A DNA stretch of 64,000 nt from Acidimicrobiales bacterium (lineage in GTDB: Bacteria; Actinomycetota; Acidimicrobiia; Acidimicrobiales; SKKL01), in the NCBI GenBank assembly GCA_034521975.1, contig JAXHLR010000003.1:1-64000 (forward strand), given 5' to 3'. Positions within the stretch are counted from its first letter, which is position 1; each line of letters opens with the position of its first letter. The translations under genes were made by a program, and so were the position numbers. The notes below the pieces were generated by a model. It saw only the letters and a list, made by a program, of their open reading frames with translations, had not been told where the DNA came from and made no database searches. Below, piece after piece: positions 60-53,132 of the stretch.

Positions 60-1520
60 TCAGAACTCCCGTGCCGATGGCGGGTTGGCGTCGGGTGCCC
101 AGGCCTCGGCGTTGCTCGCCAGGCGCAGCAGCACGACAGCGACGTTGCCCCGACCGATGCGGTGGTCGGGCAGGAACATGCCCGATTGGCCAGAACCCCG
201 TGTGACTCCGGTCGCGCGAGCCCACCGCAAGGCCGGCTCATAGGCCACCCCGCTCGGCACATCCACGAACCCGTGGTGGGTCGGTTCGTCGGGCGCACCG
301 GCAGCCATCCAGAGCAGGACGACCAGCTCGGCCCTGCTGATCGGCTGGTTCGGCTCGAATCGAGATCCGGGAGCGAGCTGGTCGAGCATCCCGACCGAAC
401 GTGCCCATCTCAGCTCGGGGGAGAACGGAGCGGCCGGGCCCACGTCGAGGAATCCGTGCGGGACGTCGACCTGTGGCCGGTCCGCGAGACGCCACAGGAA
501 GCTGAGGGCTTGACGGCGGGTCACCGGGTTCCGGGTCCCGAACACGTCGTCGACCACCGTGATGTCGTGGTAGCGGGCCCAGGCAGCAGCTTGGCCGGTC
601 GGGCTCAGGTGTTCGACGTCGACGAAACCGGGGTCGGGGAGCGGGTCGGGGCGTGGTCGGGTCCACGGGGACGGTTCGGATGCGGTGCTCTGTCCTGATG
701 GACCGTTCGCGATGAGCCGGAAGCGGTAGGGGGTGCCGTTGATCAGCCCGCCGACGACACAGCTGGTCGCGGTGGTCGAACAGGTCCGACCACCGGGTTC
801 GGCTTGGACGAGGATGTTCCCGCTCGCCGATGACTGGATCTGTACTGGCCCCCAGGAGACCGTCACCGAGCGGTCTCCGGCGCGGGCCCACGGGGGGCCG
901 GGACGCTCGTTGGAGCGGCCACCGACGGCACCGCCCCCTCCGCCACCGCCCGAAGGAGGCGATGGAGGCGAAGGAGGCGACATCGTCGTGGTCGTGGTCG
1001 TCGGCGCCTCGGTGGTCGAGGTGGTCGAGGTCGTCGTGGTCGTCGGCGCCTCGGTGGTCGAGGTGGTCGAGGTCGTCGAGGTCGTCGAGGTCGTCGAGGT
1101 CGTCGTGGTCGTCGGTGGCGGTGGCTCCCACCCGGTCGGGCGCATCGACGCGTCCACGTCGCCGATGGGGACGCTGCTGACCTCGACCACCACGGCATCG
1201 CCGGCGGTGTTCGTGTCCTGCCAGTACTCCTCCACGTAGAGGTCGGTGAAGTCGACGAACCCGACCGTGAACAGACCCGTTGGCACCTCGGGCATGGTGT
1301 AGTGGCCCTCGGTGTCGGTGAACGCCGCGCTGCCGGCGGTGTGGTCGAGCGACTCGGCGTACACGTAGATGCCGACGAGGCCGAGACCGGTCTCCTCCGA
1401 CGTCACCCGACCCGAGATCGTGACCGGACCGACGGCGACCGCCGGCACGACGACGAGCATCGCCGCGAGCAGCAATGACGCGGACGCGGCGACGAACCAG
1501 CCTCGAAACCAGCGGGACAT
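60..1520 (-). CDS. Secreted surface protein: regulatory-like, FN3 and SLH domains
   Basis: Predicted exported cell-surface protein of about 486 aa. It starts with a signal peptide (MSRWFRGWF, then a run of A, L and V to about residue 30). A carboxypeptidase-regulatory-like beta-sandwich follows (about 33-130), then a low-complexity Thr/Ser/Glu/Pro linker and a short Pro/Gly-rich stretch. Next comes a fibronectin-III-like domain (about 215-300) and three SLH motifs (FVDV/FLDV-type) to the end. SLH motifs normally bind secondary cell-wall polymers, which suggests a wall-attached product. The ATG at 1520 overlaps the upstream stop as TGATG, so it is the last gene of the operon. A role in holding the polymer at the surface is inference from position. 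Confidence 0.8.
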   Translation of the reverse strand: MSRWFRGWFVAASASLLLAAMLVVVPAVAVGPVTISGRVTSEETGLGLVGIYVYAESLDHTAGSAAFTDTEGHYTMPEVPTGLFTVGFVDFTDLYVEEYWQDTNTAGDAVVVEVSSVPIGDVDASMRPTGWEPPPPTTTTTSTTSTTSTTSTTSTTEAPTTTTTSTTSTTEAPTTTTTTMSPPSPPSPPSGGGGGGGAVGGRSNERPGPPWARAGDRSVTVSWGPVQIQSSASGNILVQAEPGGRTCSTTATSCVVGGLINGTPYRFRLIANGPSGQSTASEPSPWTRPRPDPLPDPGFVDVEHLSPTGQAAAWARYHDITVVDDVFGTRNPVTRRQALSFLWRLADRPQVDVPHGFLDVGPAAPFSPELRWARSVGMLDQLAPGSRFEPNQPISRAELVVLLWMAAGAPDEPTHHGFVDVPSGVAYEPALRWARATGVTRGSGQSGMFLPDHRIGRGNVAVVLLRLASNAEAWAPDANPPSAREF

Positions 1521-2575
1521 CAACACGGTTGCCTCCAGGCGGAGAGGTCACGGTCTTTGGCCATGGAGCTGAACCCCAGCGGAGCCGTGACGGGACAGAA
1601 CTCGGCGGGCGACAGGTCGTACTCCACGTGGAGCACCGCCTTGCCGGCCCGGACGAAGGGCAGGAGCAGGCCGCACTCGCCGTAGCGGGCGCACTCCTCG
1701 TTGATGGCGAAGTCGAACACGTCCACCAGTTCGCCGACCTGGTCCACATCGTTCTTCAAGGCGATCGACAGGCCTCGCTCGTGGGCGATGTTGGCCAGCC
1801 AGCGGTTGTAGACGAGCTGGTCCTCGGCGGTGAGGGGGAACCCGGTCTCGTTGACGTACCCGTCGATGTTGTCGGGCTCGACGGCGTCGAACCCCTTGTC
1901 GGCGCAGAGGTCGAAGCGGGCCTCGATGATCGGGGCGAGCAGGTCGATGCGACGGATGTCGAGCCACCGCTCCCCCGGCCAGCCGTTCGGGTTCCCGAGG
2001 ATCGACGAGGGGAACTCGTCGGCGTCGGAGCGCCAGTCCTCCCATGCGCCGACGCTCACGTAGCAGATGACCCGCCTGCCTCTTGCGTGGAGCTCTCCAA
2101 CGGTCGAGGCCGTGGTGTCGAAGCCGTCGAGGTCGTAGATGGGCACATCGATGCTGAGGTCGATGAGGCCGGACAGCTGCCACTGCCAGGGGGTGCCGGG
2201 GGTGGGAACCCATCGCGGAGGAGGTCGGCCAGTCGCGTCGGTGCCCCTCGCCGGTGCCGGATCGGGCGAGGACGAGGAGGTGACGCCATCGGACCCCGGC
2301 GGGTGAGCGGGCGGGTCTCCCGCCGGAGCCGATGGCGCGGGTGCAGCACTCGATGGAGCGGGGACGGATTCCGCACTCGTCGGTGTCGCACCCGGGTGCT
2401 CGACCACGAGGCCACCTGTGGTCGAGACTTCTTCGGTCAGAGCGGAGGGTCGGGGTTCTCCGTCCGAGGGACGGGTGGAGCCGATGGCGATCACGATCGT
2501 GACCACCGCACCGACCAACAGGAGAAGCGCCAGCAGCGGCAGCAGGCCACGAGCACGGAGTGATCCACGGTTCAC
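1520..2575 (-). CDS. GH114-type endo-alpha-1,4-polygalactosaminidase, membrane anchored
   Basis: Predicted 351-aa extracytoplasmic glycoside hydrolase. An N-terminal hydrophobic segment (about residues 9-30) acts as signal or anchor and is followed by a Ser/Pro/Ala-rich linker to about 115. The rest is a TIM-barrel of the GH114 (Ega3/PelA hydrolase) type, with the family blocks CYVSVGAWEDWR and GFDAVEPDNIDGY, the latter carrying the acidic residues typical of the active site. GH114 enzymes cut alpha-1,4 galactosamine-containing polymers such as fungal galactosaminogalactan and Pel. The GTG start at 2575 overlaps the upstream stop as GTGA, which fixes the start better than any upstream codon. 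In Pseudomonas the equivalent activity is one domain of PelA; here it is a separate gene. Confidence 0.85.
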   Translation of the reverse strand: MNRGSLRARGLLPLLALLLLVGAVVTIVIAIGSTRPSDGEPRPSALTEEVSTTGGLVVEHPGATPTSAESVPAPSSAAPAPSAPAGDPPAHPPGSDGVTSSSSPDPAPARGTDATGRPPPRWVPTPGTPWQWQLSGLIDLSIDVPIYDLDGFDTTASTVGELHARGRRVICYVSVGAWEDWRSDADEFPSSILGNPNGWPGERWLDIRRIDLLAPIIEARFDLCADKGFDAVEPDNIDGYVNETGFPLTAEDQLVYNRWLANIAHERGLSIALKNDVDQVGELVDVFDFAINEECARYGECGLLLPFVRAGKAVLHVEYDLSPAEFCPVTAPLGFSSMAKDRDLSAWRQPC

Positions 2576-3801
2576 CACCTGACCGCGAACATCTGGTCGG
2601 GGTCCTCGACGAACCCGGCACACGCGACGAGGCCGCCGGCGACGGCGAGGAGTGGCGCCACCCAGACGAACCCCACGGCACACACCAACACCCCTGCACC
2701 GGTCACCGCCAGACCCGTTCCCGGATGACCGGTCGCCTCGGCCACCACCGCGACCAGACCGACCAAGCCGACCATTGCCACCGTCACCGGGACCACCGCC
2801 GGCACCATGGTGCTCGCTGCCAGGATGAGGATGGCCACGACTCCCAGGTACGTCAGGAAGGTGACGACCAGCAGCCTGGCGACGAACTGACGACCGCGGA
2901 GGGTCGGGCCGTCTGACAGCGCCTCACCTCCGAGGAGGATCGGCACCCGCGTCCAGATCAGGTCGAGCTGGATGGTGGCGGCCGACAGGGCCACCAGCGT
3001 GGGGAGCACGGCGACGATGAGGGACTCCGTCCCGAGGTGCTCGGTGCTGCGGGTGGCCAGGAGGACCAACGTTCCGAAGGCGGCCATCGCCAGGGCAGGC
3101 ACGATCACGATCCGCCACGGCAATGCCGGTCGGGCACTGGGAACGGCGTGATGAAGGCTCATCGCTGCCAGACCGGCGACGGCGAGCAGCACTCCGACCG
3201 CTGGGTAGGCAGCATCTGCTCCGAGTCCTACGGCGGAGAGCGAGCCTCCCACCGCTGCGATCGTGGCCACGGGCAGTGCTTCGACCATGAGACCGAGCCC
3301 CACGAGGGCGATCAGCAGGCCGCCCCCGATGAGCCCGCCGGCGAGGACGCCGGTGACGACGGCGGCCACGGCCACGATCAGGGCGACGGAGGCGATGTCG
3401 TTGCGCATCACGGCCACGCCGTGGTGAGCCACCAGGTAGCGGCGGTGCAACAGCGCGACGATTCCGAGCGAGAACGGGAGGACGATCCGGGCCGTCGCGG
3501 TCAGTCGGTCGCTCCCGACGACCGACTCCAGGGGTTGGATCCACCCGATGGTGAGCGCAGCGAGCACGATCGACGCGATGTGACGGTGCATTCGATCCCG
3601 ACGTCTCGGGACCCCGACGACGGGCCCGACGTCGTGACGCCGGTAGGACACCTGATCACCGGCATCGAGCGCGACCCGGGGTCGAACCCCCGACCACGCT
3701 TCGAGCACGACGGCCAGCTCGAGGGGGTCCTGGACGGGGCGCCCCAGACGGGCCTCGGCACGAACACGAGCGAGCTCGGGGTCGAGTCCCGACGCGTTCA
3801 C
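2572..3801 (-). CDS. Polytopic membrane protein of the Pel-like operon (PelG position)
   Basis: A 409-aa protein with a soluble N-terminus of about 70 residues followed by roughly ten to twelve hydrophobic segments rich in A, V, L and G. No catalytic motif is visible. It is translationally coupled to both neighbours: the GTG start overlaps the PelF-like stop as GTGA, and its own stop overlaps the GH114 start. In known pel clusters the gene after pelF is pelG, a polytopic flippase-like protein that works with PelF. Position and topology fit that job, but I do not recognise PelG at sequence level, so the assignment is by context only. A different exporter or assembly protein is possible. Confidence 0.6.
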   Translation of the reverse strand: MNASGLDPELARVRAEARLGRPVQDPLELAVVLEAWSGVRPRVALDAGDQVSYRRHDVGPVVGVPRRRDRMHRHIASIVLAALTIGWIQPLESVVGSDRLTATARIVLPFSLGIVALLHRRYLVAHHGVAVMRNDIASVALIVAVAAVVTGVLAGGLIGGGLLIALVGLGLMVEALPVATIAAVGGSLSAVGLGADAAYPAVGVLLAVAGLAAMSLHHAVPSARPALPWRIVIVPALAMAAFGTLVLLATRSTEHLGTESLIVAVLPTLVALSAATIQLDLIWTRVPILLGGEALSDGPTLRGRQFVARLLVVTFLTYLGVVAILILAASTMVPAVVPVTVAMVGLVGLVAVVAEATGHPGTGLAVTGAGVLVCAVGFVWVAPLLAVAGGLVACAGFVEDPDQMFAVRW

Positions 3802-5267
3802 GCCGCCTCCCTGCTGGCGACCTCGGTGAGGAGGGTGCGGTATCGCTCGATGAAGGTGGCCTGCGAGTAGCGTTCCGCGACCCGACGGCGGCCTCGGAGG
3901 CCGAGCAGGTCCGCCAGGCCGGGATCCCGGATCAGGGCGGTCACCCCGTCGGCGAGCCGATCGACGTCGCCTGGTGGAGTGATGAACCCGCATCCCTCCA
4001 TCGAGTCGGCGACGCCTCCCACTGCAGTGGCGACGACCGGTCTGGCCTGCGACATCGCCTCGAGCAGGGAGATGGGCAGGCCTTCGGAGATGGAAGTCGA
4101 CAAGACGATGTCGCCATCGCACACGGCGGTCAGCGGCGCGCGGGTGGGGCCGAGGAAGCGGAACCGGTCGCCGAGGCCGAGACGGGCGTGGGCGTGGTAG
4201 CAGCTGGCGGCGTAGGACTCGCTGCCAGGCGACACCGGCCCGTGGTGTACGAAGCGGGCCTCGGGCACCCGCCGCACGACCTCGGCGGCGACCTCGATGA
4301 GGGTGTGGATGTCCTTGAGCGGGTCGATGCGCCCGACGGTGACGACTCGACCGCTGCGGGGAGGGGGAGCCGGCTCGTGGTCGGCAATGCCGATGCCGTT
4401 CGGCACCGGTCGGATGCGCTGGGTCGGCACTCCCAGGCCCTGCTCCCAGGGCAGGTGGGAGCTGGTGACGGGGGCGACGACGTCGGCGGCGTGATAGCCG
4501 ATGCGCGCCAGTCCTCGGGCGACGCGGGTGGCGACCCATCGGGGTCCGGGCCGCGCGCCGGACCGGCAGGCAGCGAGATAGGCCTCACGGACGTAGACAC
4601 CGTGCTCGGCGAGAACGATCGGCGTGCCGGTGAGGGCACGATCGACCACTGCGGGGATGGCGGCCCAGCCCGCGGCGGTGACCAGGTGCACGTCGACCGG
4701 TGGGGTGGGCTCTGCGGCGCAGGCCGCGACCCAGCCGAGAGTCCGGTACAGATCGAGGGTGGTCCAGCGGTCGAGCATCGGCGTTTCGCCGGGTTCGCCC
4801 GGTTGGGCGGTGACGAGATCAACCAGACGGGACCGGAACCGGCGCCACGCTCCCGGGTCACGGAACACGGCGAGGCTCTCGGGTCGGCGACGGAACGCCA
4901 CCAGCACCTCGATTGCCGCGTCGGGATCGCTGTCCCACCCGAGCAGAGAGGCGGCAAGGTCGGCCGGTAGGTCGAGCATCTCGAGGGGACGACGCCGGAG
5001 GTCCCAGCCGTCCACCCGGTGGGGGGTCAGGTCGTTCCACACCCTCACCCCGGGCAGGAGCCGGGCTCGCACCGGCACGTCGAACACGGACCGGATCATG
5101 GTGGTGCCGGGTGCGATCGGGAAGATGTTCCAGCCGAGGTCGGGCAGGTGCTCGATCAGCTGGGCGCACCAGGTGCTGACCCCGCCCACGACGAACGGGT
5201 AGGTGCCCTCGGTGGTGAGCAGCACTCTGGGCGAACCGGTGCCGGGCTGTCCGGGTGATCGACCCAT
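3798..5267 (-). CDS. PelF-type GT4 glycosyltransferase (DUF3492 + GT4)
   Basis: A 489-aa cytosolic glycosyltransferase. The N-terminus carries the PelF/DUF3492 signature TEGTYPFVVGGVSTW near residue 18. The C-terminal half is a GT4 domain with the nucleotide-sugar-binding GRIDPLKD block, a HHGP motif and the E-x7-E-like ISEGLPISLLE block. PelF polymerises N-acetylgalactosamine/N-acetylglucosamine from UDP-sugars for the Pel polysaccharide. The length agrees with PelF (about 500 aa). The ATG at 5267 lies one base after the stop of the deacetylase-like gene, and the 3' end overlaps the next start by GTGA. This is the strongest single indicator that the operon makes a Pel-like polymer. Confidence 0.88.
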   Translation of the reverse strand: MGRSPGQPGTGSPRVLLTTEGTYPFVVGGVSTWCAQLIEHLPDLGWNIFPIAPGTTMIRSVFDVPVRARLLPGVRVWNDLTPHRVDGWDLRRRPLEMLDLPADLAASLLGWDSDPDAAIEVLVAFRRRPESLAVFRDPGAWRRFRSRLVDLVTAQPGEPGETPMLDRWTTLDLYRTLGWVAACAAEPTPPVDVHLVTAAGWAAIPAVVDRALTGTPIVLAEHGVYVREAYLAACRSGARPGPRWVATRVARGLARIGYHAADVVAPVTSSHLPWEQGLGVPTQRIRPVPNGIGIADHEPAPPPRSGRVVTVGRIDPLKDIHTLIEVAAEVVRRVPEARFVHHGPVSPGSESYAASCYHAHARLGLGDRFRFLGPTRAPLTAVCDGDIVLSTSISEGLPISLLEAMSQARPVVATAVGGVADSMEGCGFITPPGDVDRLADGVTALIRDPGLADLLGLRGRRRVAERYSQATFIERYRTLLTEVASREAA

Positions 5268-5268
5268 C

Positions 5269-7299
5269 TCAGGACTCCGCGGCGATGGTCACGGTGACCG
5301 GTGACCCGGCACCGACCGAGACCCATCCAGAGCTGCGCCCCGCATAGGCCGTTCCGTGGTTCACGCCACCGATGGTTGATCCGGTGGGGGTGGTCAACGG
5401 CACATGGACCGTGCCGTTGGCCGACTCGATGGTGACCGTGCCGTCCTGGAGGTAGGCGGTGACACCAGCCTGGGCGTCCTCCCACACGTCGCTACGGCGG
5501 AGGGCGATGGCAGCCTGGGTCATCGTCGGTGCGACAATCGGCGTGTCGGGTGCGTAGATGCCCCGGTAGCGGGCGAGGAGCTCGTCGAGGACGGGGAGCA
5601 GGATCCGGTCCTCGGCCAGGTTCGACTGGTGGGCGTAGTGCGGGCGGGGGTCGTTGCCCATCACGTGGCCCAGGGCGATGCCCGCCTCGAGCGGGACGAT
5701 GTAGCTCTGGAACCCCGAAGCGGAGTCGAGCGGCGAGATGCAGGTGCTGCGGGGATCGATGGTGCAGATGCCGCTCCCGCCGTCCTCGGTCGAGGTGTAG
5801 ATCCAGTTGTACTCGTCGACCTCCTCTGCCTCGGTGCCCACGTTGTAGAAGATGTTCATCGGATGGCGGGGAACGGTCAGGGCCGACCCCACGAACCGCT
5901 GCTCGGGTTCGCGGGAAGCATCGGAGGCGACGTAGCTGATTCCGGCGGCGCCGAGGGCGGACACGAAGTTCGGGTTGTCCGCCGGTTGCTGCGGTTCGAC
6001 ACGGAGCCCCGAGTGCTCGCCGGGAACCAACTCGTTGGGGTCGAACGGGATGCGGCGTCGTTGGGCCCAACCGATGTTGCCGACCAGCTCCTCGACGATG
6101 GTCGGCTCGTCCAGGTACTGGGGATTCGCGGTGCCACCGACGCACTGCCAGGGGATGACGCTGAAGTCCTGGAGGCACCCCATGAACGGATGCGAGTAGG
6201 TGTGGTTGATCCACCGGAACCGGTGGCGGTTGGCCAGGAGCGACTCGCTGAGCGGATCGTGGACCTGAGTGGCGAAGGCCTCGTCGCTGCCCGCGCCGTT
6301 GTAGGCGAAGTCGAGGACGAACCCTTGGGCCTGTTGCCACTGGCGCACGGCGAGCAGGTCGTCGGCGGTCATCCGGATCGGTTCGGTCGGGTAGATCTCG
6401 GATCCATCGGGGTTGCGGGGGCAGTCATCCTCTGGGGTGCAGTTCCCGACGGTGCTCCAGCGGGCATCGGACATGAAGATGTCGTCGATGTGGACCGACA
6501 GGTAGTTCCGGGCGTACCCGAGGTTCACGCCGCGGGTGACCCAGTCGATGATCCCGGGGGCGAGTGCCCGCAAGTGGCCCTGATGGCGGTTGGCCCCCAT
6601 GGCCACGACCAGTTGCTCCCGACCGACGAGGGTGTGCACACCGATGAGGGGGGCGGACCAGCCTTCGCCGGGCACCGGCACCTCGACCAGGCTGGTGAAG
6701 GTCTCGCCGTCGGGAGGCGGGTCGAGCGGTGTGGCGAGATAACCCCAGGCGAAGGCGTCGACGGTGAGCGAGCCGGCGAGGTAGCCGAAGGGACCGGCCA
6801 GTCCGGCGGGGGTCACGGTGGCCACCGCTCCATCGAGCGGACCGTTGTACTGGGTCCAGTTCAGCCCGACCGATGGTCCGGCCCACACCCGGGCGTAGGC
6901 GCGCCGGATCCCGAAGTGGGCTTCGTAGGTGTCGAGTGCATCCATCTCGGCCTGGGTCACCTGACCGAGCACGACGACCTCGTTGGAGGGGAGGATCACC
7001 GCTTGGAACCGGGCTCGTTCGAGCTCACCAGCGACGTCGCTGAGGAAGGTGGCGTCGATGGCCGGGCGGGCAGGATCGTTCAGGTCCACGATGGTGCGGG
7101 GGGTGCCCCGCTGGTCGAGCTCGGAGATGAGCGCGTCGACCTGGGGACCGCCGTCGTCGAGGACGAGCACGATCAGGTCGACGCGCGGCCCCCCGGCCTG
7201 GGCGGGGCTCGACGTCGCCGGCAACGCTGCCAGCAAGACGAGGACCGCCACGATGAGGGTGACGGTCTTCCGGGCTCGACCAGTGGGGCGGTTCTTCAT
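5269..7299 (-). CDS. Agd3/PelA-like polysaccharide deacetylase (CE18 type)
   Basis: A 676-aa secreted protein with a signal peptide (basic start, hydrophobic stretch to about residue 35). An N-terminal beta-rich region (about 38-250) resembles the accessory carbohydrate-binding part of Agd3-type enzymes. The catalytic region carries HIDD at residues 270-273 and HTYSH at 366-370, matching the metal-binding aspartate and H-x3-H motifs of polysaccharide deacetylases. A small beta-sandwich closes the C-terminus. Agd3 and PelA deacetylate GalNAc residues to make the polymer cationic and adhesive. The ATG at 7299 overlaps the preceding stop as ATGA. The hydrolase that is fused to the deacetylase in Pseudomonas PelA is a separate gene here. 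Confidence 0.8.
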   Translation of the reverse strand: MKNRPTGRARKTVTLIVAVLVLLAALPATSSPAQAGGPRVDLIVLVLDDGGPQVDALISELDQRGTPRTIVDLNDPARPAIDATFLSDVAGELERARFQAVILPSNEVVVLGQVTQAEMDALDTYEAHFGIRRAYARVWAGPSVGLNWTQYNGPLDGAVATVTPAGLAGPFGYLAGSLTVDAFAWGYLATPLDPPPDGETFTSLVEVPVPGEGWSAPLIGVHTLVGREQLVVAMGANRHQGHLRALAPGIIDWVTRGVNLGYARNYLSVHIDDIFMSDARWSTVGNCTPEDDCPRNPDGSEIYPTEPIRMTADDLLAVRQWQQAQGFVLDFAYNGAGSDEAFATQVHDPLSESLLANRHRFRWINHTYSHPFMGCLQDFSVIPWQCVGGTANPQYLDEPTIVEELVGNIGWAQRRRIPFDPNELVPGEHSGLRVEPQQPADNPNFVSALGAAGISYVASDASREPEQRFVGSALTVPRHPMNIFYNVGTEAEEVDEYNWIYTSTEDGGSGICTIDPRSTCISPLDSASGFQSYIVPLEAGIALGHVMGNDPRPHYAHQSNLAEDRILLPVLDELLARYRGIYAPDTPIVAPTMTQAAIALRRSDVWEDAQAGVTAYLQDGTVTIESANGTVHVPLTTPTGSTIGGVNHGTAYAGRSSGWVSVGAGSPVTVTIAAES

Positions 7300-7673
7300 G
7301 CCGACACCGCGTCGCTGTTGGTGCTCCGCGTCGTGCTGCGACGCTCGGGCCGAACCCGCCGGTCGATCTCGGCGACGGGGACCAGCTCGACGAGCTGGGT
7401 GTGGAGCTGGCCTGCGAGGGTCTGAAGGTCGATCGAGGCCTGGATGAGCCCCTGACGCATCAACTCGAGCTCGAGCCATGCGGCCGACAGGTCGTTGGCC
7501 TCGACACTCGAATCGGCCGCGGTCGCCAGCATCCCGGCGATCGATCGAGGGACCGAGCTCGGGCTGACAGGGCGATACTGCTCGGCTCGGAGGCGTGCAT
7601 TCTCCTCACGGAGAGCGACGAGCTCGTCGTGCAGCGCATTGGGGCCGTCGTCTGGGATTGGGCGTCGTGGCAC
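7296..7673 (-). CDS. Small coiled-coil protein opening the Pel-like operon
   Basis: A 125-aa protein of no recognised family. Residues 14-32 (HDELVALREENARLRAEQ) form a leucine-zipper-like coiled coil, and the rest is predicted helical with no signal peptide or membrane segment. The GTG start at 7673 is preceded by a GGAGG about 12 nt upstream, and the stop overlaps the next ATG. As first gene of the operon it could be a regulatory or scaffold component, but nothing in the sequence shows PelD-like GAF/GGDEF or PelE-like TPR features. Confidence 0.6.
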   Translation of the reverse strand: MPRRPIPDDGPNALHDELVALREENARLRAEQYRPVSPSSVPRSIAGMLATAADSSVEANDLSAAWLELELMRQGLIQASIDLQTLAGQLHTQLVELVPVAEIDRRVRPERRSTTRSTNSDAVSA

Positions 7674-7814
7674 GGTTTTATCCGCCTCCGGTCATTGTGC
7701 GGCGTGTGACCGGCTCATTAGGCGCCCTTGCGGGAGTTCCAACAACCCTCACCAGGATGATCTCGACTACGTCATTGGGCGCATACACAACCGCAGTCGC
7801 GCGTCAGATTCGAT

Positions 7815-8423
7815 TCAGAGAGCCGGGCTCTCCCCGCCGAGCCCGACCGACTCGGCCAGGACCACCGCCGCGACCCGAGAGCGAACACCGAGCTTGGAGT
7901 AGATGGACCGCAGATGTGATCGAACCGTCGACGACTGGATGCCGAGATCGGCGGCGATCGCATCGGTGGCGACACCCGACGAGAGCATCGCCAGGACCTG
8001 CTGTTCCCTGGCCGACAAGCGCGTCAGACCCAGCGGTTCAGGAGCGATGAGGTTGACCGGTCCCCGCCGGCGTCGGTGGGTTTGGAGCGCTCTGAGCAGC
8101 TCAGCTCGCCCTGATGCATGGGTCATGACATGATCGACTCGCGCCTCCGACGCCCACCGGAGCACCACTGATGTCGCCCACTCGACGCGGGCGATCACGA
8201 TCGGCATCGCCTCACAACGGTCCAAGGCGGCGCGAAGCTCGTCCACTGGGGCGAGCGAATCGCTGACATCGATGATGCAGCCGTCCACGGTGTTCACGCC
8301 AAGTGCCTGGGCGAGCACGTCGAGTGAATGGACACTGACGACCACACGGTGCCCGTCAGCGGCCAGGAGCGCGACAAGCGATTCGATGAACAGATTCGAA
8401 TCACTACAAATCAACAGGTCCAT
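7815..8423 (-). CDS. LuxR/NarL-type regulator with degenerate receiver
   Basis: A 202-aa DNA-binding protein with a receiver-like N-terminal half (residues 1-125) and a LuxR-type HTH at the C-terminus (LTRLSAREQQVLAMLSSG...STVRSHLRSIYSKLGV). The receiver has only one of the usual N-terminal acidic residues (ICSDSN) and no clear conserved lysine, though an aspartate is present in IIDV. It lies 141 bp upstream of, and on the same strand as, the Pel-like operon, so it is a candidate for its local regulator. The ATG at 8423 is chosen because the receiver fold begins there; the longer open frame upstream runs into the divergent gene. Confidence 0.8.
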   Translation of the reverse strand: MDLLICSDSNLFIESLVALLAADGHRVVVSVHSLDVLAQALGVNTVDGCIIDVSDSLAPVDELRAALDRCEAMPIVIARVEWATSVVLRWASEARVDHVMTHASGRAELLRALQTHRRRRGPVNLIAPEPLGLTRLSAREQQVLAMLSSGVATDAIAADLGIQSSTVRSHLRSIYSKLGVRSRVAAVVLAESVGLGGESPAL

Positions 8424-8532
8424 GGCACACCCTCGCCAAGAGAAACATACTGCAGCAACGACGCGAATTGCTCGCGCTGTGGTGTGACGTAAAGCCCTGT
8501 CCATCTCCGCCGGATGGCGGCATAATGCGTTG

Positions 8533-9231
8533 GTGCTTCGCATCTTGATCGTCGACCGGGATCGTCTGATCACCGATGCTGTCTCGTCGTGGCTCGCTGG
8601 ACGGCCCGACATCGAGCTGTGCGCGACCGCCACCAACCTTGCCGACGCCGCAGCCCACCTCGCCGATGGCCGCTTCGATGCGCTGCTCATCGGTACCACC
8701 TTCGGCACCGACGTTCCTGGGTTCATCCGCCGCCTGGTTGAGACGCCGCCGGGTCCAGCGATCGTGGCCCTCGTTCGCCCCGACGATCCTGACGAGGCGG
8801 TGCGGATGTTCCGCGCGGGAGCGAGCGGGGTGGTCGACCGCTCAGCCTCACTGGCGGTCGTGTTCCAGACCCTGGCAGCAGCAGCCGGGGGCGACAAGGT
8901 CGTGCCACCCGACCTGGTCCCTCACCTGGTCGAGGCGCTGCACAGATCGCAACCCGAGGCCAACGAGTGGGAGCGGCGCGTGGCGAAGCTGTCGTCACGC
9001 GAGATCGAGGTGCTGGGTTGGATGATGGCCGGGCACAACCGGGCAGCAATCGCTCGGGAGCTGTACTTGTCGGTGAACACGGTGCGGACCCACATCGCCA
9101 ACGTGTTGTCGAAGTTGGACGCTCACTCGAGCGTCGAAGCGGTGTCGATCGGCCGGAGAGCCGGTCTCGTGCCCGCGGAGAACGCCGCGACCTCATCGGC
9201 ATCGGAGCGCGAGCTCCACCCACACCCCTGA
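8533..9231 (+). CDS. LuxR/NarL-type response regulator, atypical receiver
   Basis: A 232-aa protein with a receiver-like domain (residues 1-120) and a LuxR HTH (about 150-210, LSSREIEVLGWMMAG...VNTVRTHIANVLSKL). The first acidic pocket is present (VDRD), but the phosphoacceptor position reads LLIGTTFG without aspartate and the usual lysine is missing, so control by phosphorylation is unlikely. It is divergent from the LuxR-type gene at 7815, with a shared intergenic space of about 110 bp that should hold both promoters. The start could be the TTG at 8530 or the GTG at 8533; GTG is preferred. Confidence 0.8.
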   Translation: MLRILIVDRDRLITDAVSSWLAGRPDIELCATATNLADAAAHLADGRFDALLIGTTFGTDVPGFIRRLVETPPGPAIVALVRPDDPDEAVRMFRAGASGVVDRSASLAVVFQTLAAAAGGDKVVPPDLVPHLVEALHRSQPEANEWERRVAKLSSREIEVLGWMMAGHNRAAIARELYLSVNTVRTHIANVLSKLDAHSSVEAVSIGRRAGLVPAENAATSSASERELHPHP

Positions 9232-9681: not shown

Positions 9682-10362
9682 ATGTCGAGGAGATTGGCGT
9701 TTGCAGGGGCTGCCGCCGCGTTCATCGCCGTGGTGGCGATCGCGGCCTTGGTGTTCGGCGGGGGCGGCTTGCCCGATCCGGCCCGCCACGGCTTCTGTGC
9801 GCTCGACACCGACTTCGCCGCCGAGGCGGCTGCGGATCCGGTCGGGTTCGACCAGCAGATGGCCACCTCTGCCGGCCAGCAGCGGTTGGGTGAGGCACTC
9901 AGCGGTGCGCCCGATGCGGTCGCCGCCGAGGTGCGGGTCGTGGTCGAGGCGATCCGCGATCGTGGCCATCAGGCCTTCGACGATCCCGAGGTCGCCGCGG
10001 CCGCTGACCGGGTCGAGGCGTGGAAGGACCGGTTCTGCCAGGTCGTCACCACCACGACGTTCCCCTTCCCGGTCGGCAACGTCCCCGGTGTTCCCTTCGA
10101 GTGCCCGCCGGGGTTCGTGCGGGTCGAGGGGATGAGCGACGTCTACCAGGAGCTGCTCGAGCACCTGCAGATGACCGGTCAGTGGGCCGACACCAGCGAG
10201 GCCGAGGCGTTCCTCCAGGAGCAGATCCCACGGGTCGAGGGCTTCGAGGGAATGGGCGGGGTCACCTGCCTGCCCGCCGACATGGCCGGCGATGTCGATC
10301 CCGACGAGATCACCGAGCACTTGGAGCAGTACTTCCCGGAAGGCTACGACTTCGGGGAGTGA
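9682..10362 (+). CDS. Membrane-anchored hypothetical protein
   Basis: A 226-aa protein of unknown function. An N-terminal basic patch and one hydrophobic segment (LAFAGAAAAFIAVVAIAALVF) indicate a signal anchor. The exported part is acidic, helical and contains four cysteines spaced along it, which could form two disulfides. The ATG at 9682 places the anchor at the extreme N-terminus; a GTG at 9649 would add 11 residues. It ends 14 bp from the convergent peptidase gene. Confidence 0.65.
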   Translation: MSRRLAFAGAAAAFIAVVAIAALVFGGGGLPDPARHGFCALDTDFAAEAAADPVGFDQQMATSAGQQRLGEALSGAPDAVAAEVRVVVEAIRDRGHQAFDDPEVAAAADRVEAWKDRFCQVVTTTTFPFPVGNVPGVPFECPPGFVRVEGMSDVYQELLEHLQMTGQWADTSEAEAFLQEQIPRVEGFEGMGGVTCLPADMAGDVDPDEITEHLEQYFPEGYDFGE

Positions 10363-10376
10363 GCCGAGGCGACTGA

Positions 10377-11459
10377 TCAGGCGCTGACGCCGAGGTGCAG
10401 GTGGTCCTGGTGCACCGGATCGGTCCAGGACCAGCCACCGACCGGGTCGAAGGCCCAGGGGGCGCCGAGGCGGTCGATTCGGGCGGTGTCGTAGAGGTCC
10501 TGGCAGACGCGGTGAGCGAGCGAGTCGGTGTCGTGGCGCTGTTGGACGACCGCCACGTCGCCGACCGACCAGATGTCGACGGCACGGCCGACGCCGTGGG
10601 CGCTCAGGTTCGGCGTGCCGAACACGTGGGTGGGGTGTCCCCGCACACAGGTGACGGCGGCGATGGGGGTCCGGTCGGCCAGGTCGGCCATCTCGGCGAG
10701 GATCCGGTCGTCGACGATCCCCTCGTGGATGTCCCAGCGGATGCTGTCGGGCATCTGGATGTGGTCGTGCTCGAGCACCCGCAGGGCGTCGGGCGAGAGC
10801 TCCGACGGCGCCGGGACGGGCTGGCCCGAGGTGTCCTCGATGCCGGCGAGGCGCCACTGGAGCCCGTCGAGCACGACCCGCACGTCGACACAGCGTGAGA
10901 CGACGGTCTCGACCTGGTCGCGCCGGAGGTGCTGGTCGACGACCACCATGACCGACGCCGAGGTGGGGTTGCGGTGTGGGTGCAGGCCTCCGAGCTGGGG
11001 GTACACGACCCGGGCGGCGGAGTCGGTGTCGGCGACGAAGAGCACCTCGGTGGCGGCCAGCAGGTCGGCGGGGCGCAGGCCGTCGACGGCCAGGTCGAGT
11101 GCGGCGTCGACCGGGGCGGTCGGTTCGGTGGCGGCCTGGTAGGTCATGAGCGCCTCGACGACCCGCACCCCGGTCAGCTTGGCTTCGGTGAAGACCTCGT
11201 CGTCGATCGTCTGGTACGGCTCGAACCGGGGCGGCCCCGCGTCGGTGGTGGTCGTCGTCTCGGCGGCTGGATCGGGATCGGTCGCGACCGCGGTGGTCGA
11301 GGTCGTGGTCGACGGTGACGAGGTGACCGACACCGGGTCACCGGAGCGGCTCAACCGCCAGGCGACGGTGCCGCCGGTGGCGACGGCGACCGCTCCGGCC
11401 CCGACCAGTCCGAGCATCTGGCGCCGGGAGAGCTCGTCTCCCCCGGCCCTGCGGGTCAT
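10377..11459 (-). CDS. Tat-exported M15-like peptidoglycan peptidase
   Basis: A 360-aa protein with a twin-arginine signal (LSRRQMLGLVGAGAVAVATGG, residues 10-30), a Thr/Ser-rich linker and a globular C-terminal domain. The C-terminus has HGVGRAVDIW and HQDHLHLGV, which fit the zinc-binding pattern of M15/LAS peptidases (H-x6-D and D-H-x-H). This suggests a folded, possibly metallated enzyme acting on peptidoglycan cross-links outside the membrane. The ATG overlaps the upstream esterase stop as ATGA, so the pair is translationally coupled. Confidence 0.7.
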   Translation of the reverse strand: MTRRAGGDELSRRQMLGLVGAGAVAVATGGTVAWRLSRSGDPVSVTSSPSTTTSTTAVATDPDPAAETTTTTDAGPPRFEPYQTIDDEVFTEAKLTGVRVVEALMTYQAATEPTAPVDAALDLAVDGLRPADLLAATEVLFVADTDSAARVVYPQLGGLHPHRNPTSASVMVVVDQHLRRDQVETVVSRCVDVRVVLDGLQWRLAGIEDTSGQPVPAPSELSPDALRVLEHDHIQMPDSIRWDIHEGIVDDRILAEMADLADRTPIAAVTCVRGHPTHVFGTPNLSAHGVGRAVDIWSVGDVAVVQQRHDTDSLAHRVCQDLYDTARIDRLGAPWAFDPVGGWSWTDPVHQDHLHLGVSA

Positions 11460-12901
11460 TGGGTCCCGGTCCTCGCTCGCATCTCGCCCGACTGGGAGAA
11501 CCCGATCATGACCCACCCGCGGCTGTGGCCGTTGCCGAGCAGGTTGGTCCAGTAGGCCAGGCCGCCGCCGTCGGCCTCGCGGTCGAAGACGTTGCGGTAG
11601 AGCTGGCGCACGAAGCCGGCGTCGTCGAGCTCGCCGTAGGTGTTGCGGAACTCCGACGAGCGGGTGAAGTGCTCGGCCACGCTCGAGAGGGAGCGCCCGC
11701 GCAGGTAGGACCGGATCCAGTAGCCCTGCCCGCCGGCGTCGGGGTCGCGGGCGAACGATGCGGCGTAGAGGCGGGTGACCGCACCGCTGACCGAGGCGGA
11801 CGGTTCGCTCGTCGCCCGCTGGTGCACCATCCACTCGAGTCCGGGGTTGAACACGGCGTTGTGGCGACCGTTGAACAGCACCATGGTCACGTTGCCCGAC
11901 CGGCGCGAGAACAGCGGCGTGGGGTCGGGGCTACGGAAGTAGGTGGGCGCGGTGAGCGATCCCCGCAGGTGTGATGGCAGGGTCCAGCGGGCGATGGCGT
12001 CGGACTCGGCCGAGGTGAGGCGGTCCTCGGGGCGGGCGAGGTGGTTGAACGCCCAGACCGCGTGCTGTGGCAGCACCAGGGTGTCGCTCAGCCCGTGGCC
12101 GAGGTAGACGGGGACGTCGGCGTCGCGGGCGCGGTCGAGGTGGTTGATGGGGCTGCGGTGCCGGCACTGGTCGCGCGCCGAGGAGTTGGTGAGCGGGTTG
12201 CCGCCGCACGAGGCTTCGATCTGGGTGATGTAGTTGAACCGGGAGCTGTAGCGGTACCACTCGACGAGGTCGTAGATCGGGACCCACGACACCGCTCCGG
12301 AGATGCGGTCGGGGTGGCGTCCGGCCATGAGCAGCGACATCATGCCGCCGCCGGAGAAGCCGATGGTGTACACGTTGTTCATGTCGATGTCGGCGTGGCG
12401 GCCGGCCCAGTCGATGGCGTCGATGATGTCCTGAACGGCCAGGTCCGAGCCGGTGGCGTCGGGTGAGTTGGAGATGCCCCGGAAGTCGGGGTGGATCATC
12501 GCCCAGCCGTTGGCTCGCGCCCAGCGGGCGTAGGGGATGCTGGCGGTCTGGTCATAGCGCGAGCTCCACGAGTGCAGCGCCACCAGCAGGGGGCGGGGCC
12601 CGGGCTGTTCGGGGGGAAGCCACAGCGCGGGTTGCATCTGCCCGTCGATGGTGGAGGGGATGCGGACGTCGGCGATGCCCGGAACCTGCCGCTGCCAGGC
12701 GCTCACCCCGTTGCCGAGCAGGCCGGCGTTGGTGGCCGGGTAGACCCGGACGAACTGGGGTTGCACCCCTTGTTGGGCGGTGGCGTCGGAGGTGCGGTGG
12801 GCGGCGCCGGCGACGGTGGCCACCAGGGCGAGCGCGACGAGCACACCCAGGGTTCGCACCCGGGTGGGGTTCGACCGGCGGATCGCGGCAGGGGTTCGCA
12901 T
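11456..12901 (-). CDS. Secreted alpha/beta-hydrolase fused to DUF4214
   Basis: A 481-aa protein. It has a signal peptide (residues 1-40), then an alpha/beta-hydrolase domain of the prolyl-oligopeptidase/esterase type with the nucleophile motif GFSGGG near residue 180, an aspartate in the YLGHGLSDT block and a histidine in FNGRHNAVFNPG. The C-terminal 100 residues are a DUF4214 module (ARDPDAGGQGYW, then a second GGGLAYW block). DUF4214 is common on secreted proteins of Acidimicrobiia-like genomes and is thought to bind surface polymers; its use on an esterase here is notable. The natural substrate is not evident. Confidence 0.75.
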   Translation of the reverse strand: MRTPAAIRRSNPTRVRTLGVLVALALVATVAGAAHRTSDATAQQGVQPQFVRVYPATNAGLLGNGVSAWQRQVPGIADVRIPSTIDGQMQPALWLPPEQPGPRPLLVALHSWSSRYDQTASIPYARWARANGWAMIHPDFRGISNSPDATGSDLAVQDIIDAIDWAGRHADIDMNNVYTIGFSGGGMMSLLMAGRHPDRISGAVSWVPIYDLVEWYRYSSRFNYITQIEASCGGNPLTNSSARDQCRHRSPINHLDRARDADVPVYLGHGLSDTLVLPQHAVWAFNHLARPEDRLTSAESDAIARWTLPSHLRGSLTAPTYFRSPDPTPLFSRRSGNVTMVLFNGRHNAVFNPGLEWMVHQRATSEPSASVSGAVTRLYAASFARDPDAGGQGYWIRSYLRGRSLSSVAEHFTRSSEFRNTYGELDDAGFVRQLYRNVFDREADGGGLAYWTNLLGNGHSRGWVMIGFSQSGEMRARTGTQ

Positions 12902-12918
12902 GGTGGGGAGGTTACGAG

Positions 12919-14076
12919 TCAGGCCCGCAACAGTTCGTGCACCTTCAGGCGTTGTCCGCCCCGGAGCAGCGCCTTGCGGTAGATCGTACCGCCGACGCGG
13001 GCGAGGACGAGCACGGTGGCGATGCCGAGGCCGACCGCGGCGGCGATCTCGAGCCCGCTGGCGGCGCCGGCGCCGATCCGCACCGGCATGACCATGGGGG
13101 CGCTGAAGGGGATGATGGAGATCACCCGGGCGATGGTGCTGCCCGGGTCTTCGGCGGCCTGGATGGTGGCCAGGTAGGACAGCACGAGGATGGCGCTGAG
13201 CGGCCCGACCGCGGTGCCGAGGTCCTCCTGACGGTCGACGAGCGCGCCGAGCGACCCGAAGGCGACCGCGTAGACGGCGTATCCGAGGACGAACCACCCG
13301 ATGGCGGAGACGACGTCGAGCGCGGCGGCGTCGGGCACGTCGACCCATCCGCCGGCGATGGCGGCGGCGAAGGGGATGGCTCCGGCGCAGAGGATGATGA
13401 GGACCGACACGCCGAGGCCGAGCACCTTGCCGGCCAGCAGGTGCGCGGGGCGCACGGTGGTGACCAGCACCTCGGCGATGCGGGTCGACTTCTCGATGGC
13501 GACGCCCTGGGCGACGCTCATGCCTCCCATGAAGATGGCGAGGTAGAGCACCAGCCCGGTGAGCCAGGCGACGCCTGCCCGCCCTGACTCTTCGTCGTCG
13601 ACGCGAACCTCGGTGGGTGGGGTGGGGGCGAGCGCGGCGGCGATGGTCTCGTCTTCGAGTCCGGTGCCGTCGAGGACCTGGCGGACCGAGGCCGAGGAGA
13701 CGGCCTGGTTGACGATGCCGACGAGGGTCTCGGAGGAGTCGTCGCGACGGATGAGGTAGGTCTCGTCGGGTTCGAAGGCGACCGCGACCGAGTCGTCGCC
13801 CTCGTCGACGGCGGTGGTGGCGGCGTCGCGGTCGTCGTGGGTGGTGAGCTCGAGCTCGGCGTCGAAGGCGGCGACGAGGGTCTCGAGGTCGGCTTCGAGC
13901 CCGGTGGGGACGTCGCCGGCGAGCCCGAGGTGGTAGGTGGTGTCGCTGTCGATGAGCCGGGGGATGATGATGCCGCCGGCGACGATCACCATGAACAGTC
14001 CGATGGTGAACCAGTAGGAGCGGGCCCGGAACGACTCCATGAGGTCGCGTCCGGCGACGAGACGCACGTGGTTCAT
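12919..14076 (-). CDS. ABC transporter permease (NatB/ABC-2 type)
   Basis: A 385-aa ABC-2 type permease. Topology is the usual one: one membrane segment near residue 20, a large extracytoplasmic loop (about 45-210), then five further segments. It partners the ATPase gene at 14073 and overlaps its stop by ATGA. NatAB-type pairs export sodium, drugs or peptides; the substrate cannot be inferred. Confidence 0.85.
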   Translation of the reverse strand: MNHVRLVAGRDLMESFRARSYWFTIGLFMVIVAGGIIIPRLIDSDTTYHLGLAGDVPTGLEADLETLVAAFDAELELTTHDDRDAATTAVDEGDDSVAVAFEPDETYLIRRDDSSETLVGIVNQAVSSASVRQVLDGTGLEDETIAAALAPTPPTEVRVDDEESGRAGVAWLTGLVLYLAIFMGGMSVAQGVAIEKSTRIAEVLVTTVRPAHLLAGKVLGLGVSVLIILCAGAIPFAAAIAGGWVDVPDAAALDVVSAIGWFVLGYAVYAVAFGSLGALVDRQEDLGTAVGPLSAILVLSYLATIQAAEDPGSTIARVISIIPFSAPMVMPVRIGAGAASGLEIAAAVGLGIATVLVLARVGGTIYRKALLRGGQRLKVHELLRA

Positions 14077-43569: not shown

Positions 43570-45330
43570 CAGAGCCCGGTCGAGAGCGACTGCGATCTGT
43601 GCGACTCTCAGGACTCTGCTCGGGTGCGAGTCCTGCTTCACCGTGTATCCGGCGAGTTCCTGTGCCCGGTCCACAGCATCTCGAGGGAGTACGGCCAGCT
43701 GGGTCAGGGCAGCTCGCGTTCGCACCTCGGCCGTCTGCCACGGTCCTGGGCTCGGTGCCCCGGGACGATGTCCACGCACCTTGTGATGCAGGGCGAAGGC
43801 AGCGCCGACGGCTGCGGCGGGAAGGAGGTTCGCGCGAGGTCCGAGGCGAGGAATCTGGCCTTCGGACCGGGGCACCCACCCACTGCGCCCCATGGCGTGG
43901 CCGAAAGCGCGATGGAAGAAGACCCGGTTGAGCTTCTGTACCTCGGGAACCACCGACACGCACTGCGCGACGTTCCCCATCAGGAACGGGGAAGCCGACC
44001 GGAGTCGAGCGCGGTTGGAAGCGAGGAACCCGTACGCCGGCTTGTCCGAGAGCGGCCAGATCTCCAGCCAGGAGGACAGATCCTCCGCTGGCCGCATCGA
44101 CTCGATCAGCGCAGCCTTTCGGGCGACTCGATCGGCCACCGCCGAATCGAGCTCTGGGTCGGCGAAGCCCGCGTCAGTCCTGGCACGAGCGAGCCCCAGA
44201 GCCACTCCGCGGTAGGAGCGCTGCCGCTGGCGAAGGTACGCCGCCTTCAGCAGGATGTCTGCGCCAAAGCCATCGAGAAAGAGATCGACCTCGAGGTTCT
44301 CACAGAGCCCGCTCGAGTGCGCATGCGCCAGATCCACGCCGGGTCCGACGTCCTCGACAAGCTCTGTGAGGGCTCGGGTGTAGTGGTCGGGGGCCCGGTA
44401 GCGGATCGCGAGTGGGAGGCTGAGCCGTCGCGCAGCCAGGTCCGCGAGCCGGTACTCGCGGTTGAGGGCATCGAGAAATATCACTGCCTTCAGCTCGCCA
44501 TCTTCAGGAACGCGCTCGCTGGCCAGCGCTCCGATCACCCGCGAGTCCTCACCACCGCTGAACATGATCGTGGTCCGCGGGTGGTGCCCAAGCAACCAAT
44601 CCAGGTTCTCCACCATCGCGTCGCGGGTCGCATCGGCGACGTCACCGAGCTCATCGGTGGTGATCGACCCATTGCGTGTTGGCCGCCAGTAGGAGTGACC
44701 TTCGAGGTTTGCCGGCATCCCGGCGTCACCGGGTGGAAGCTCCAGGATCCGTCCCGGCCACATGCGCTGGACGTCTTCGTAGGCGGTGTGTGGCGAGGTG
44801 ATGGCACCGCGCTCTGCGAACTCCCGGATCGAGGTCTCGTCCACTCGCCCGCGCCCGGCGACCCTGGCGACATCCACCAACTGGGTCCCGATGCACCAGT
44901 CCCCGCGACTTCCGACGAGGGTCGTGGTGTAGACGGGGATCGAGCCCATGTGATCGACGAAGCACAGGAGCCCCTCACGCGACAGGACCATTCCTGCAAG
45001 GTGCCCCGTGAGCCTCGTTCGCAACGTATGACCCAACTCAGCCGCCGTAGGATCCACGACTTGTAGCGACAGCGCGATCGCTCGGGCGTCGAGCCCCCCG
45101 GCCCGGCTGCCTGCGAGCACGACCGTTCTTCCGGTCTCCGCATCGGTGTACAGGTCGACCCCGCCTCGGACCAACAGCCGACACCAGCTGGCCGCTTGGG
45201 GCACCTCACGGTACCCGTTGCTCCGAATCATCTCGTCCTGGCTCGTTGCGAGCACGACGAGCCAACCAGGTGGGCTCCCACTCACACCATCCAGTTCATC
45301 GACTCCGATCGCCGGACCCTTCCCTTCCAC
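43558..45330 (-). CDS. Asparagine-synthetase-like protein
   Basis: A 590-aa protein of the asparagine-synthetase B fold. The N-terminal part resembles a glutamine amidotransferase (LTGHLAGMVLSREGLLCFVDHMGSIPVYT), but the nucleophile cysteine is not at the N-terminus, so ammonia must come from elsewhere or a different nucleophile is used. The synthetase half has the PP-loop IMFSGGEDSRVIGALA. Relatives include cyclases for lasso peptides and amide-forming enzymes in surface-sugar loci. The GTG at 45330 is a formal start; ATG (MIRSNGYREV) about 33 residues later is also possible. GC content is a little lower than in neighbours. Confidence 0.75.
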   Translation of the reverse strand: MEGKGPAIGVDELDGVSGSPPGWLVVLATSQDEMIRSNGYREVPQAASWCRLLVRGGVDLYTDAETGRTVVLAGSRAGGLDARAIALSLQVVDPTAAELGHTLRTRLTGHLAGMVLSREGLLCFVDHMGSIPVYTTTLVGSRGDWCIGTQLVDVARVAGRGRVDETSIREFAERGAITSPHTAYEDVQRMWPGRILELPPGDAGMPANLEGHSYWRPTRNGSITTDELGDVADATRDAMVENLDWLLGHHPRTTIMFSGGEDSRVIGALASERVPEDGELKAVIFLDALNREYRLADLAARRLSLPLAIRYRAPDHYTRALTELVEDVGPGVDLAHAHSSGLCENLEVDLFLDGFGADILLKAAYLRQRQRSYRGVALGLARARTDAGFADPELDSAVADRVARKAALIESMRPAEDLSSWLEIWPLSDKPAYGFLASNRARLRSASPFLMGNVAQCVSVVPEVQKLNRVFFHRAFGHAMGRSGWVPRSEGQIPRLGPRANLLPAAAVGAAFALHHKVRGHRPGAPSPGPWQTAEVRTRAALTQLAVLPRDAVDRAQELAGYTVKQDSHPSRVLRVAQIAVALDRALLTV

Positions 45331-45502
45331 CTCAAGCTAGAGGACCCGGAGGCTAGCGGAGCCAATCGAACAGGACGCTGGAAACCTTGCCCTGTCCCAC
45401 ACGAGCCTGGGGCGGATGTCACTCCGTGCCACGCGATCGGCAACCGGCGTACATCCACAGGGGCTACGGTGGTCCCAGATGTCGTAGAGCGAGAGGGGCT
45501 CA

Positions 45503-46201
45503 GTGGTGCGATCCACCACCGACGCAGGGGCGTCGACCCCGGTCGAGAGGACGAGGCGGCGTCCGGGCCAGCGCTCGGTCGACCTCGCCGTCGGTCTGGT
45601 CGCCTCGGTGGCCACGGCTCCGCTGATCGCGGTGCTGTTGGTCGGCTCGGCGGTGGTGTTCCGCGCCAACCCGCTGTTCGTGCAGCGGCGCGTGGGCCTT
45701 GGCGGCAAGCTCATCCCGGTGCCGAAGATCCGCACCCTGCCACCGCAGGCGCCGACCGCGGCCGACAAGCACGAGCTGGTCGCGGTGGAGATCCCGGCGT
45801 GGGGTCGGTGGTTGCGGGGCCTGCATCTCGACGAGCTGCCCCAGTTCTGGTCGATGGTGGCCGGCCACATGAGCCTGGTGGGTCCACGCCCGGAGATGCC
45901 GCGGCTCGCGGCGCAGTTCGATCCCGAGTTCGCCGCGGCACGCACCACGGTGCGGCCGGGCATCACCGGGCTGTGGCAGATCTCCGAGGCGGTGTCGGGG
46001 CTGATCCACGATGCACCGGAGTACGATCTGGCCTATCTGCAGCTCGCCAGTGGCCGCTTCGACGCCTGGGTGCTGGGCCGGACGGTTCGCCAGTACCTGC
46101 CCGGCGGGCGGGCGGTCACACTCGACGATCTTCCCGCCTGGGTTCAGATCGAGCCCCAGCAGGCCGACGCATACTCCATGACGACGTCGGGAGGCCGATG
46201 A
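45503..46201 (+). CDS. Undecaprenyl-phosphate sugar-phosphate transferase
   Basis: A 232-aa bacterial sugar transferase of the short (PglC-like) type. There is one membrane segment (about 27-52), then PLFVQRRVGLGGKLIPVPKIRT, LRGLHLDELPQFWSMVAGHMSLVGPRPEMP and RPGITGLWQIS, all family hallmarks. It loads the first sugar phosphate on undecaprenyl phosphate. It is coupled to the GDP-fucose synthase gene by ATGA. Confidence 0.9.
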   Translation: MVRSTTDAGASTPVERTRRRPGQRSVDLAVGLVASVATAPLIAVLLVGSAVVFRANPLFVQRRVGLGGKLIPVPKIRTLPPQAPTAADKHELVAVEIPAWGRWLRGLHLDELPQFWSMVAGHMSLVGPRPEMPRLAAQFDPEFAAARTTVRPGITGLWQISEAVSGLIHDAPEYDLAYLQLASGRFDAWVLGRTVRQYLPGGRAVTLDDLPAWVQIEPQQADAYSMTTSGGR

Positions 46202-47169: not shown

Positions 47170-47251
47170 GGGCTGCGTGGGCGGCAAGCAGGATCTCAGG
47201 GGCAGCGGAATCCTCGGCGAAGCTGCCTCATCGGTACCGGGCGTCCCCAGT

Positions 47252-52473: not shown

Positions 52474-53120
52474 GCTGTACCCACAACTTTGGCTGGACTA
52501 CCTGCAGCGATTGCGCCACTGGGTACGTCGCCCGTCACGACCGAGCCCGCTCCGATAACCGCATCATCTCCGATTGAGACGCCCTTGAGTACAATTGAGC
52601 GAGCACCGATGAAGACATTGCTACCAATGCGCACCCTATCGTTAAGCGAACCCAGCGGCTTGGGCGCATGCCGATGGCGGATCGGAGAGATCGCGTGAAA
52701 GTCTGTGTCGGCAATCATTACATCCGCACCGATCAGGCAATTATTTCCGATCTCAATTGACCGCACCGAACAAAGGCTCACGCCACTGAGCCCGGTACCC
52801 GCGCCGATGCTGATCTGTGCGCCGACTTCCATAGTACGAAGGATGACGGGGCGAGAGACGCCGAGAGCGGTTGCGTGCGCGACAGAAATCATCGAAACCT
52901 TGTCCCCAATGACGATGCTTGACCGGCTATGTAGTTGCACAATTGGTAAGCCGATTAGCTTGGCGTCGCTACCTACCTCAACACCCCGCAGGCGAAGCCA
53001 CGTTCTGAGCAAAGGGGACAACCGACTCCATGCAACCAGCCGCATCAAGGAAGTGGGCGACAGGCCTGTTGATCGCCTAGTCCTGCGCACCATCAACATC
53101 CAAACCGTGAATACGGGCAA
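52461..53120 (-). CDS. Left-handed beta-helix acyltransferase
   Basis: A 219-aa hexapeptide-repeat protein ([84 protein letters not shown]). It should O- or N-acetylate a sugar. The gene is poorer in G+C than its neighbours and uses more A/T third positions, suggesting separate origin. It overlaps the GT4 gene by 13 bp. Confidence 0.85.
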
Positions 53121-53132
53121 TTCCAGATGAGG

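Follow-up and report, generated by a model that had tools for sequence, protein, structure and literature searches.

Which protein exports a GalNAc polymer where PelG is absent? The question is raised by an operon at one end of the window, by which we mean the whole 64,000-nucleotide stretch of Acidimicrobiales DNA that was analysed. The fungal galactosaminogalactan (GAG) cluster consists of uge3, sph3, ega3, agd3 and gtb3. Bamford et al. 2020 (PMC7229062) reported agd3 homologues from 45 bacterial species, Actinobacteria among them. The operons combine a cytoplasmic glycosyltransferase with a multi-spanning membrane protein and usually a GH114 gene, and the authors discuss transfer to fungi. 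PelG is a protein of the MOP superfamily (PMC13254593), and Gtb3 has been called a glycosyltransferase and predicted integral membrane protein (PMC4817252, PMC7229062). Two points of the first-pass annotation of this DNA had to be corrected. It ascribed GH114 and CE18 parts to the Pseudomonas pel operon, but PelA of Pseudomonas consists of GH166 and CE21 (PMC12054363, PMC13254593). It also implied that a split of the PelA functions is new; Gram-positive pel loci, however, normally have separate genes for deacetylase and hydrolase (Whitfield et al. 2020, PMC7112168), as agd3 operons are also known to have (PMC7229062).

The operon and its enzymes

Six minus-strand genes run from 7673 to 60, joined by overlaps of 1-7 nt or a single-base gap. 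The stop/start overlaps and one-base gap read earlier from the sequence are borne out by the gene coordinates. The genes are given below in 5′ to 3′ order, followed by two regulator genes.

7296..7673, minus strand: P0005, 125 aa, cytoplasmic coiled-coil protein (LREENARLRA); homologue profile E 2e-6
5269..7299, minus strand: Agd3-type deacetylase (CE18 and a CBM87-like N-terminal part), secreted; family profile to Agd3 6nwz, E 5e-63
3798..5267, minus strand: PelF-type GT4 (DUF3492 and GT4); NF038011, 122.2 bits; PF11997, E 3e-25
2572..3801, minus strand: POLY, predicted MOP-fold membrane protein with about 12 TM helices, 409 aa; predicted structure; tied to pelF
1520..2575, minus strand: GH114 endo-alpha-1,4-polygalactosaminidase; PF03537, E 2.4e-85, 285.9 bits
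60..1526, minus strand: secreted surface protein with CarboxypepD_reg-like part, Thr-rich stalk, Fn3 and SLH; PF00395, E 2.2e-7; PF00041, E 8e-6
7815..8897, minus strand, likely start ATG 8423: LuxR/NarL-type regulator directly upstream of the operon; PF00196, E 1.2e-16
8530..9231, plus strand: divergent LuxR-type response regulator; PF00196, E 1.2e-16; Response_reg, E 5e-6

Overlaps of 4 nt join P0005 (7673-7296) to the deacetylase gene (7299-5269), pelF (5267-3798) to the POLY gene (3801-2572), and the latter to the GH114 gene (2575-1520), while a 1-nt gap separates the deacetylase gene from pelF. The SLH gene spans 60 to 1526 or 1520 and overlaps the GH114 gene by 1-7 nt, depending on the choice of start codon. 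A listed frame at 2572-4539 was rejected as the POLY gene; it starts too early, overlaps pelF, and was taken as noncoding upstream of 3801. Profiles built without the window sequences picked the correct ORFs of the window for the deacetylase (3.7e-165), PelF (2.5e-153), POLY (1.9e-16) and P0005 (2e-6). The operon is real and intact, and chance is excluded. Base 1 of the window is the contig edge; genes 3′ of the SLH gene are out of view, and the operon may extend further. The LuxR/NarL-type gene is a possible candidate for its regulator. No sigma-70-type promoter or terminator was found by consensus in 7000-8700, which is weakly informative in such a GC-rich genome.

The glycosyltransferase exceeded the NCBIfam equivalog cut-off for PelF (100 bits). 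Its EX7E motif (E395/E403), R313 and K318 were invariant in the alignment, and it is the sole DUF3492 gene in the genome. Its identity to PelFs outside its own clade is only about 30%. The GH114 protein, likewise the only one encoded in the genome, has an N-terminal membrane anchor and a low-complexity linker. Its nearest solved relative is Ega3 of Aspergillus fumigatus (6oj1, E 1.6e-53), and the acidic catalytic region is kept, with EPDNIDG and INEECARY aligning with Ega3. These two assignments of the first-pass annotation, and that of an SLH surface protein, were thus upheld by the profile scores listed above.

The Agd3-like deacetylase carrying HIDD and HTYSH, as it had been called, was recovered at the level of its family. 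The family profile was composed of the window protein and 11 bacterial relatives; positions 37-637 of this profile matched Agd3 over the whole length, across three domains. The single window sequence scored 13.7 bits against a Pfam cut-off of 27.6 for Agd3_CE, and its homologues exceeded the cut-offs for Agd3_CE and CBM87_Agd3. The protein carries HIDD and NHTYSHP motifs, and its D272, D273, H366, H370 and H557 align with D377, D378, H510, H514 and H668 of Agd3. By this alignment, D272 would be the base, D273, H366 and H370 the metal ligands and H557 the acid, with the CM1 DD, CM2 HxxxH and CM4 His present. Fungal Agd3, when added to the tree of bacterial deacetylases, had a branch length of 2.84 and no resolved position. 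Hydrolase and deacetylase are encoded separately, and Ega3 and Agd3 are their nearest solved relatives. As proposed earlier, the operon would seem to be of the GalNAc-polymer type and closer to the fungal cluster.

Two further proteins complete the operon. Homologues of P0005, which has no Pfam match, adjoin pelF in three Solirubrobacter clusters (L016-L018) and in genome G629 (L070, detected at 4.1e-16). A profile of these four homologues, with the window sequence left out, gave one match among the 384 ORFs of the window, namely P0005. This protein probably partners the synthase in the cytoplasm. Since no homologue of the SLH protein was found in the related clusters, this protein appears to be lineage-specific.

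POLY and its pairing with one PelF lineage

POLY had no sequence match in Pfam, NCBIfam or PDB, and its relatives had none in Pfam. It has an N-terminal helical domain (QDPLELAVVLEAWSGV), and its relatives have an N-terminal motif in common, LExAAxLExxGxTDxxAxxxYGxxDVFxLAE, the second half of which is eroded in the window clade. Structure prediction had been suggested earlier for this product, to which the first-pass annotation gave no name beyond polytopic protein. The AlphaFold2 model, built with 30 relatives, had a pLDDT of 78.5 and a pTM of 0.72. When it was compared with known structures by VIA-align, the top matches were MOP proteins only (best a MATE protein, Z 18.4, with 325 residues aligned at 4.4 Å); no unrelated fold came above Z 8.9. 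A second model of the family, made from a distant member (the C-terminal half of the fusion protein of locus L029), had a pLDDT of 84.1; each of its 50 rows of matches was a MOP protein, the best with Z 20.1 (354 residues aligned at 4.5 Å). Foldseek E-values are weak by themselves, with a best of 0.03 for the window model and 1e-3 for the second. From these models, POLY is predicted to consist of a conserved helical domain at the N-terminus followed by a MOP (MATE/MurJ/Wzx) fold. The polytopic genes of L023 and L026 were rejected as members of the family, the former encoding a cytosine permease (Pfam) and the latter an ammonium-transporter-like protein by eye.

The POLY profile matched 27 of 396 genomes of the phylum (8 genera). 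DUF3492 was above the cut-off in 32 genomes, among them all 27 with POLY (Fisher p 4e-37 over the 396 genomes, not corrected for phylogeny, with POLY in 8 genera). Of the five DUF3492 genomes outside the 27, three (G308, G337 and G598) carry PelG, and G536 has a diverged POLY-like gene directly 3′ of pelF and beside Agd3; the fifth is G612. In 28 of 30 loci the POLY gene follows pelF immediately on the 3′ side, in one it is one gene apart, and in one it is fused with pelF; among the 18 loci found via POLY alone, it is directly 3′ of pelF in 17. The fusion, in L029 of genome G143 (10125-13346), is a single frame of 1073 aa beside an Agd3-type gene and may be comparable with fungal Gtb3. No second PelF-POLY fusion was found among 7 genomes of that family. 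As a single instance in a fragmented assembly, the fusion could be an assembly or sequencing effect.

In a tree of 40 PelF proteins, 34 of POLY type were separated from 6 of PelG type by a 100/100 branch of length 1.75; this separating branch is long, the PelG-type rows number only six, and the root is not known. Genomes G337 and G308 have PelF, PelG and an Agd3-type deacetylase in one run, preceded in G337 by a GAF-GGDEF and a TPR protein. GAF-GGDEF (PelD-like), TPR (PelE-like), PelF, PelG and an Agd3-type CE18/CBM87 deacetylase follow one another at L085 (3993-11270) and L103. Since the Agd3-type deacetylase is paired there with a true PelG, Agd3-type enzymes serve both exporter types.

Proposed function and rival readings

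We consider it likely that the operon serves to make, export and process an exopolysaccharide resembling Pel or galactosaminogalactan, rich in GalNAc and partly de-N-acetylated, of the sticky, positively charged sort found in fungal and Pseudomonas biofilms; here we infer which sugar is used, that POLY exports the polymer, that a complex forms and what the SLH protein does. PelF would polymerise UDP-GalNAc at the inner face of the membrane. We propose POLY to be the polymer exporter in place of PelG: with its MOP fold and its N-terminal helical domain serving for docking, it would move the chain through the membrane and probably forms a complex with PelF and P0005. On the outer side, the Agd3-type enzyme would strip acetyl groups to leave a cationic chain, the membrane-anchored GH114 enzyme would cut the deacetylated stretches, and the SLH protein may anchor the matrix to the cell surface.

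There is another possible interpretation of POLY, namely that it is a highly diverged PelG in an ordinary Gram-positive pel operon of which pelD and pelE have been lost or hidden. PelG is itself a MOP-superfamily protein (PMC13254593), POLY has the same predicted fold and the same position after pelF, and one pair of alignments gave a colinear profile-profile match with PelG at 0.007. Another pair, however, gave 0.52. PF16933 (PelG) matched neither POLY nor anything else in the genome, in a search whose control found Thermotoga. Moreover, POLY begins with its own N-terminal domain and not with the PelG start MAGIGFEL, and the PelF partners fall into two separate groups. The PelD search of the genome (PF16963) gave no match either and was counted against this interpretation, with its control blank too; PelE was not recognised in the operon of the window. 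By sequence, POLY is not recognisable as PelG and belongs to an unnamed family outside the PelG family, and we regard its being a diverged PelG as possible but rather unlikely.

Two alternatives concern the product rather than the exporter. Instead of a GalNAc homopolymer like Pel, the operon might make another amino-sugar or mixed polymer (of galactose and GalNAc as in fungal GAG, or with a uronic acid). Galactose does occur in fungal GAG, whose production involves Agd3 and Ega3; a UDP-sugar dehydrogenase gene occurs in the cluster L027, and in one genus a second PelF-POLY cluster has no deacetylase. On the other hand, the operon has a single glycosyltransferase, of PelF type, and CE18 and GH114 enzymes have been specific for GalNAc/GalN polymers where tested (literature), so that a mixed polymer seems doubtful to us. 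That the cluster is decaying or not expressed and yields no functional polymer is very improbable. The distribution is sporadic, with the deacetylase in 6 of 298 genomes of the order, the homologous deacetylase gene of G019 is broken by stops, and part of the N-terminal POLY motif has eroded in the clade of the window protein; all six genes are, however, intact and tightly coupled, and the catalytic residues of the deacetylase are conserved.

The reading with POLY as the exporter of a GalNAc-rich polymer can be set beside the known systems. With the agd3 operons of Bamford et al. the operon has in common an Agd3 homologue, a GH114 hydrolase, a cytoplasmic glycosyltransferase and a multi-spanning membrane protein. 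Those authors gave the membrane protein no name and did not describe its fold, whereas here it belongs to a family with a predicted MOP fold that goes with one lineage of PelF; P0005 joins the set as a conserved small partner of coiled-coil type. The Gram-positive pelDEA(DA)FG operons share the PelF-type GT4, separate deacetylase and hydrolase genes and a MOP-type protein after pelF; unlike them, the operon has an Agd3-type deacetylase and a GH114 hydrolase, and no PelG-family exporter was found. Its likeness to the fungal GAG cluster lies in the Agd3- and Ega3-type enzymes and in a glycosyltransferase with a membrane export function, but the latter two are on two genes (fused in L029), and the operon is without a sph3- or uge3-type gene. 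A PelF-type polymerase and the deacetylase and hydrolase functions are held in common with Pseudomonas pelABCDEFG, in which, by contrast, PelA is one protein; the outer-membrane parts PelB and PelC are not expected here. The split of the PelA functions and the gene set are thus largely published. Added here are the family of the proposed exporter POLY, its predicted fold and its pairing with a PelF lineage, which we did not find described in the papers on agd3 and pel operons cited here.

The family provides a candidate exporter for widespread actinobacterial exopolysaccharide operons of a chemically unproven class (e.g. in Solirubrobacter and Nonomuraea), some of which hold all functions of the fungal GAG cluster side by side, and it makes the question posed at the outset testable. 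A broader hypothesis, which we offer tentatively and with more doubt than belief, is that alpha-1,4-GalNAc polymers have two independent synthase-exporter classes. One would be PelF-PelG; the other would join a second lineage of PelF to a MOP-fold exporter of its own and was found here in Actinomycetota, Deinococcota and Bacillota. On this view, fungal Gtb3 would derive by fusion from the second class and would have come from bacteria along with agd3 and ega3. A bacterial origin of the fungal cluster becomes testable by comparing the membrane half of Gtb3 with the POLY family.

Related clusters and neighbouring loci

Related clusters also hold genes for a UDP-sugar epimerase, a nucleotidyltransferase and Spherulin4 (GH135/Sph3-like); with these additions, the five functions that make up the fungal GAG cluster are met again around the pelF-POLY pair in bacteria. 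No epimerase or Spherulin4 gene adjoins the operon of the window, and a genome search with PF12138 (Spherulin4) gave no match, its control being blank as well.

Several clusters differed in content. Agd3 is missing from a second PelF-POLY cluster that members of one genus carry (L080, L082, L083, L086 and L088). An SDR, a Spherulin4 and a MoeB/ThiF-like protein come after the cluster in L083; genes of equal sizes follow it in others. A UDP-glucose/GDP-mannose dehydrogenase gene lies inside the Agd3-PelF cluster of L027 (8087-9697), which suggests that the polymer of that cluster contains a uronic acid. L028 (G019:C5:83000-99608) is a decaying cluster, with two adjacent pelF genes and an Agd3-type gene that is interrupted by stop codons and shifts of frame.

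Elsewhere in the window, the product of 11456-13348 is probably a secreted alpha/beta hydrolase (peptidase S9/esterase-like) that carries a DUF4214 domain at its C-terminus. A second polysaccharide locus at 45196-56575 encodes an epimerase-domain protein, a Wzy_C/O-antigen ligase-like protein, two GT4 and one GT2, a hexapeptide transferase and a rhamnosyltransferase-like protein. The GC content drops to 0.61-0.63 at 52-56 kb.
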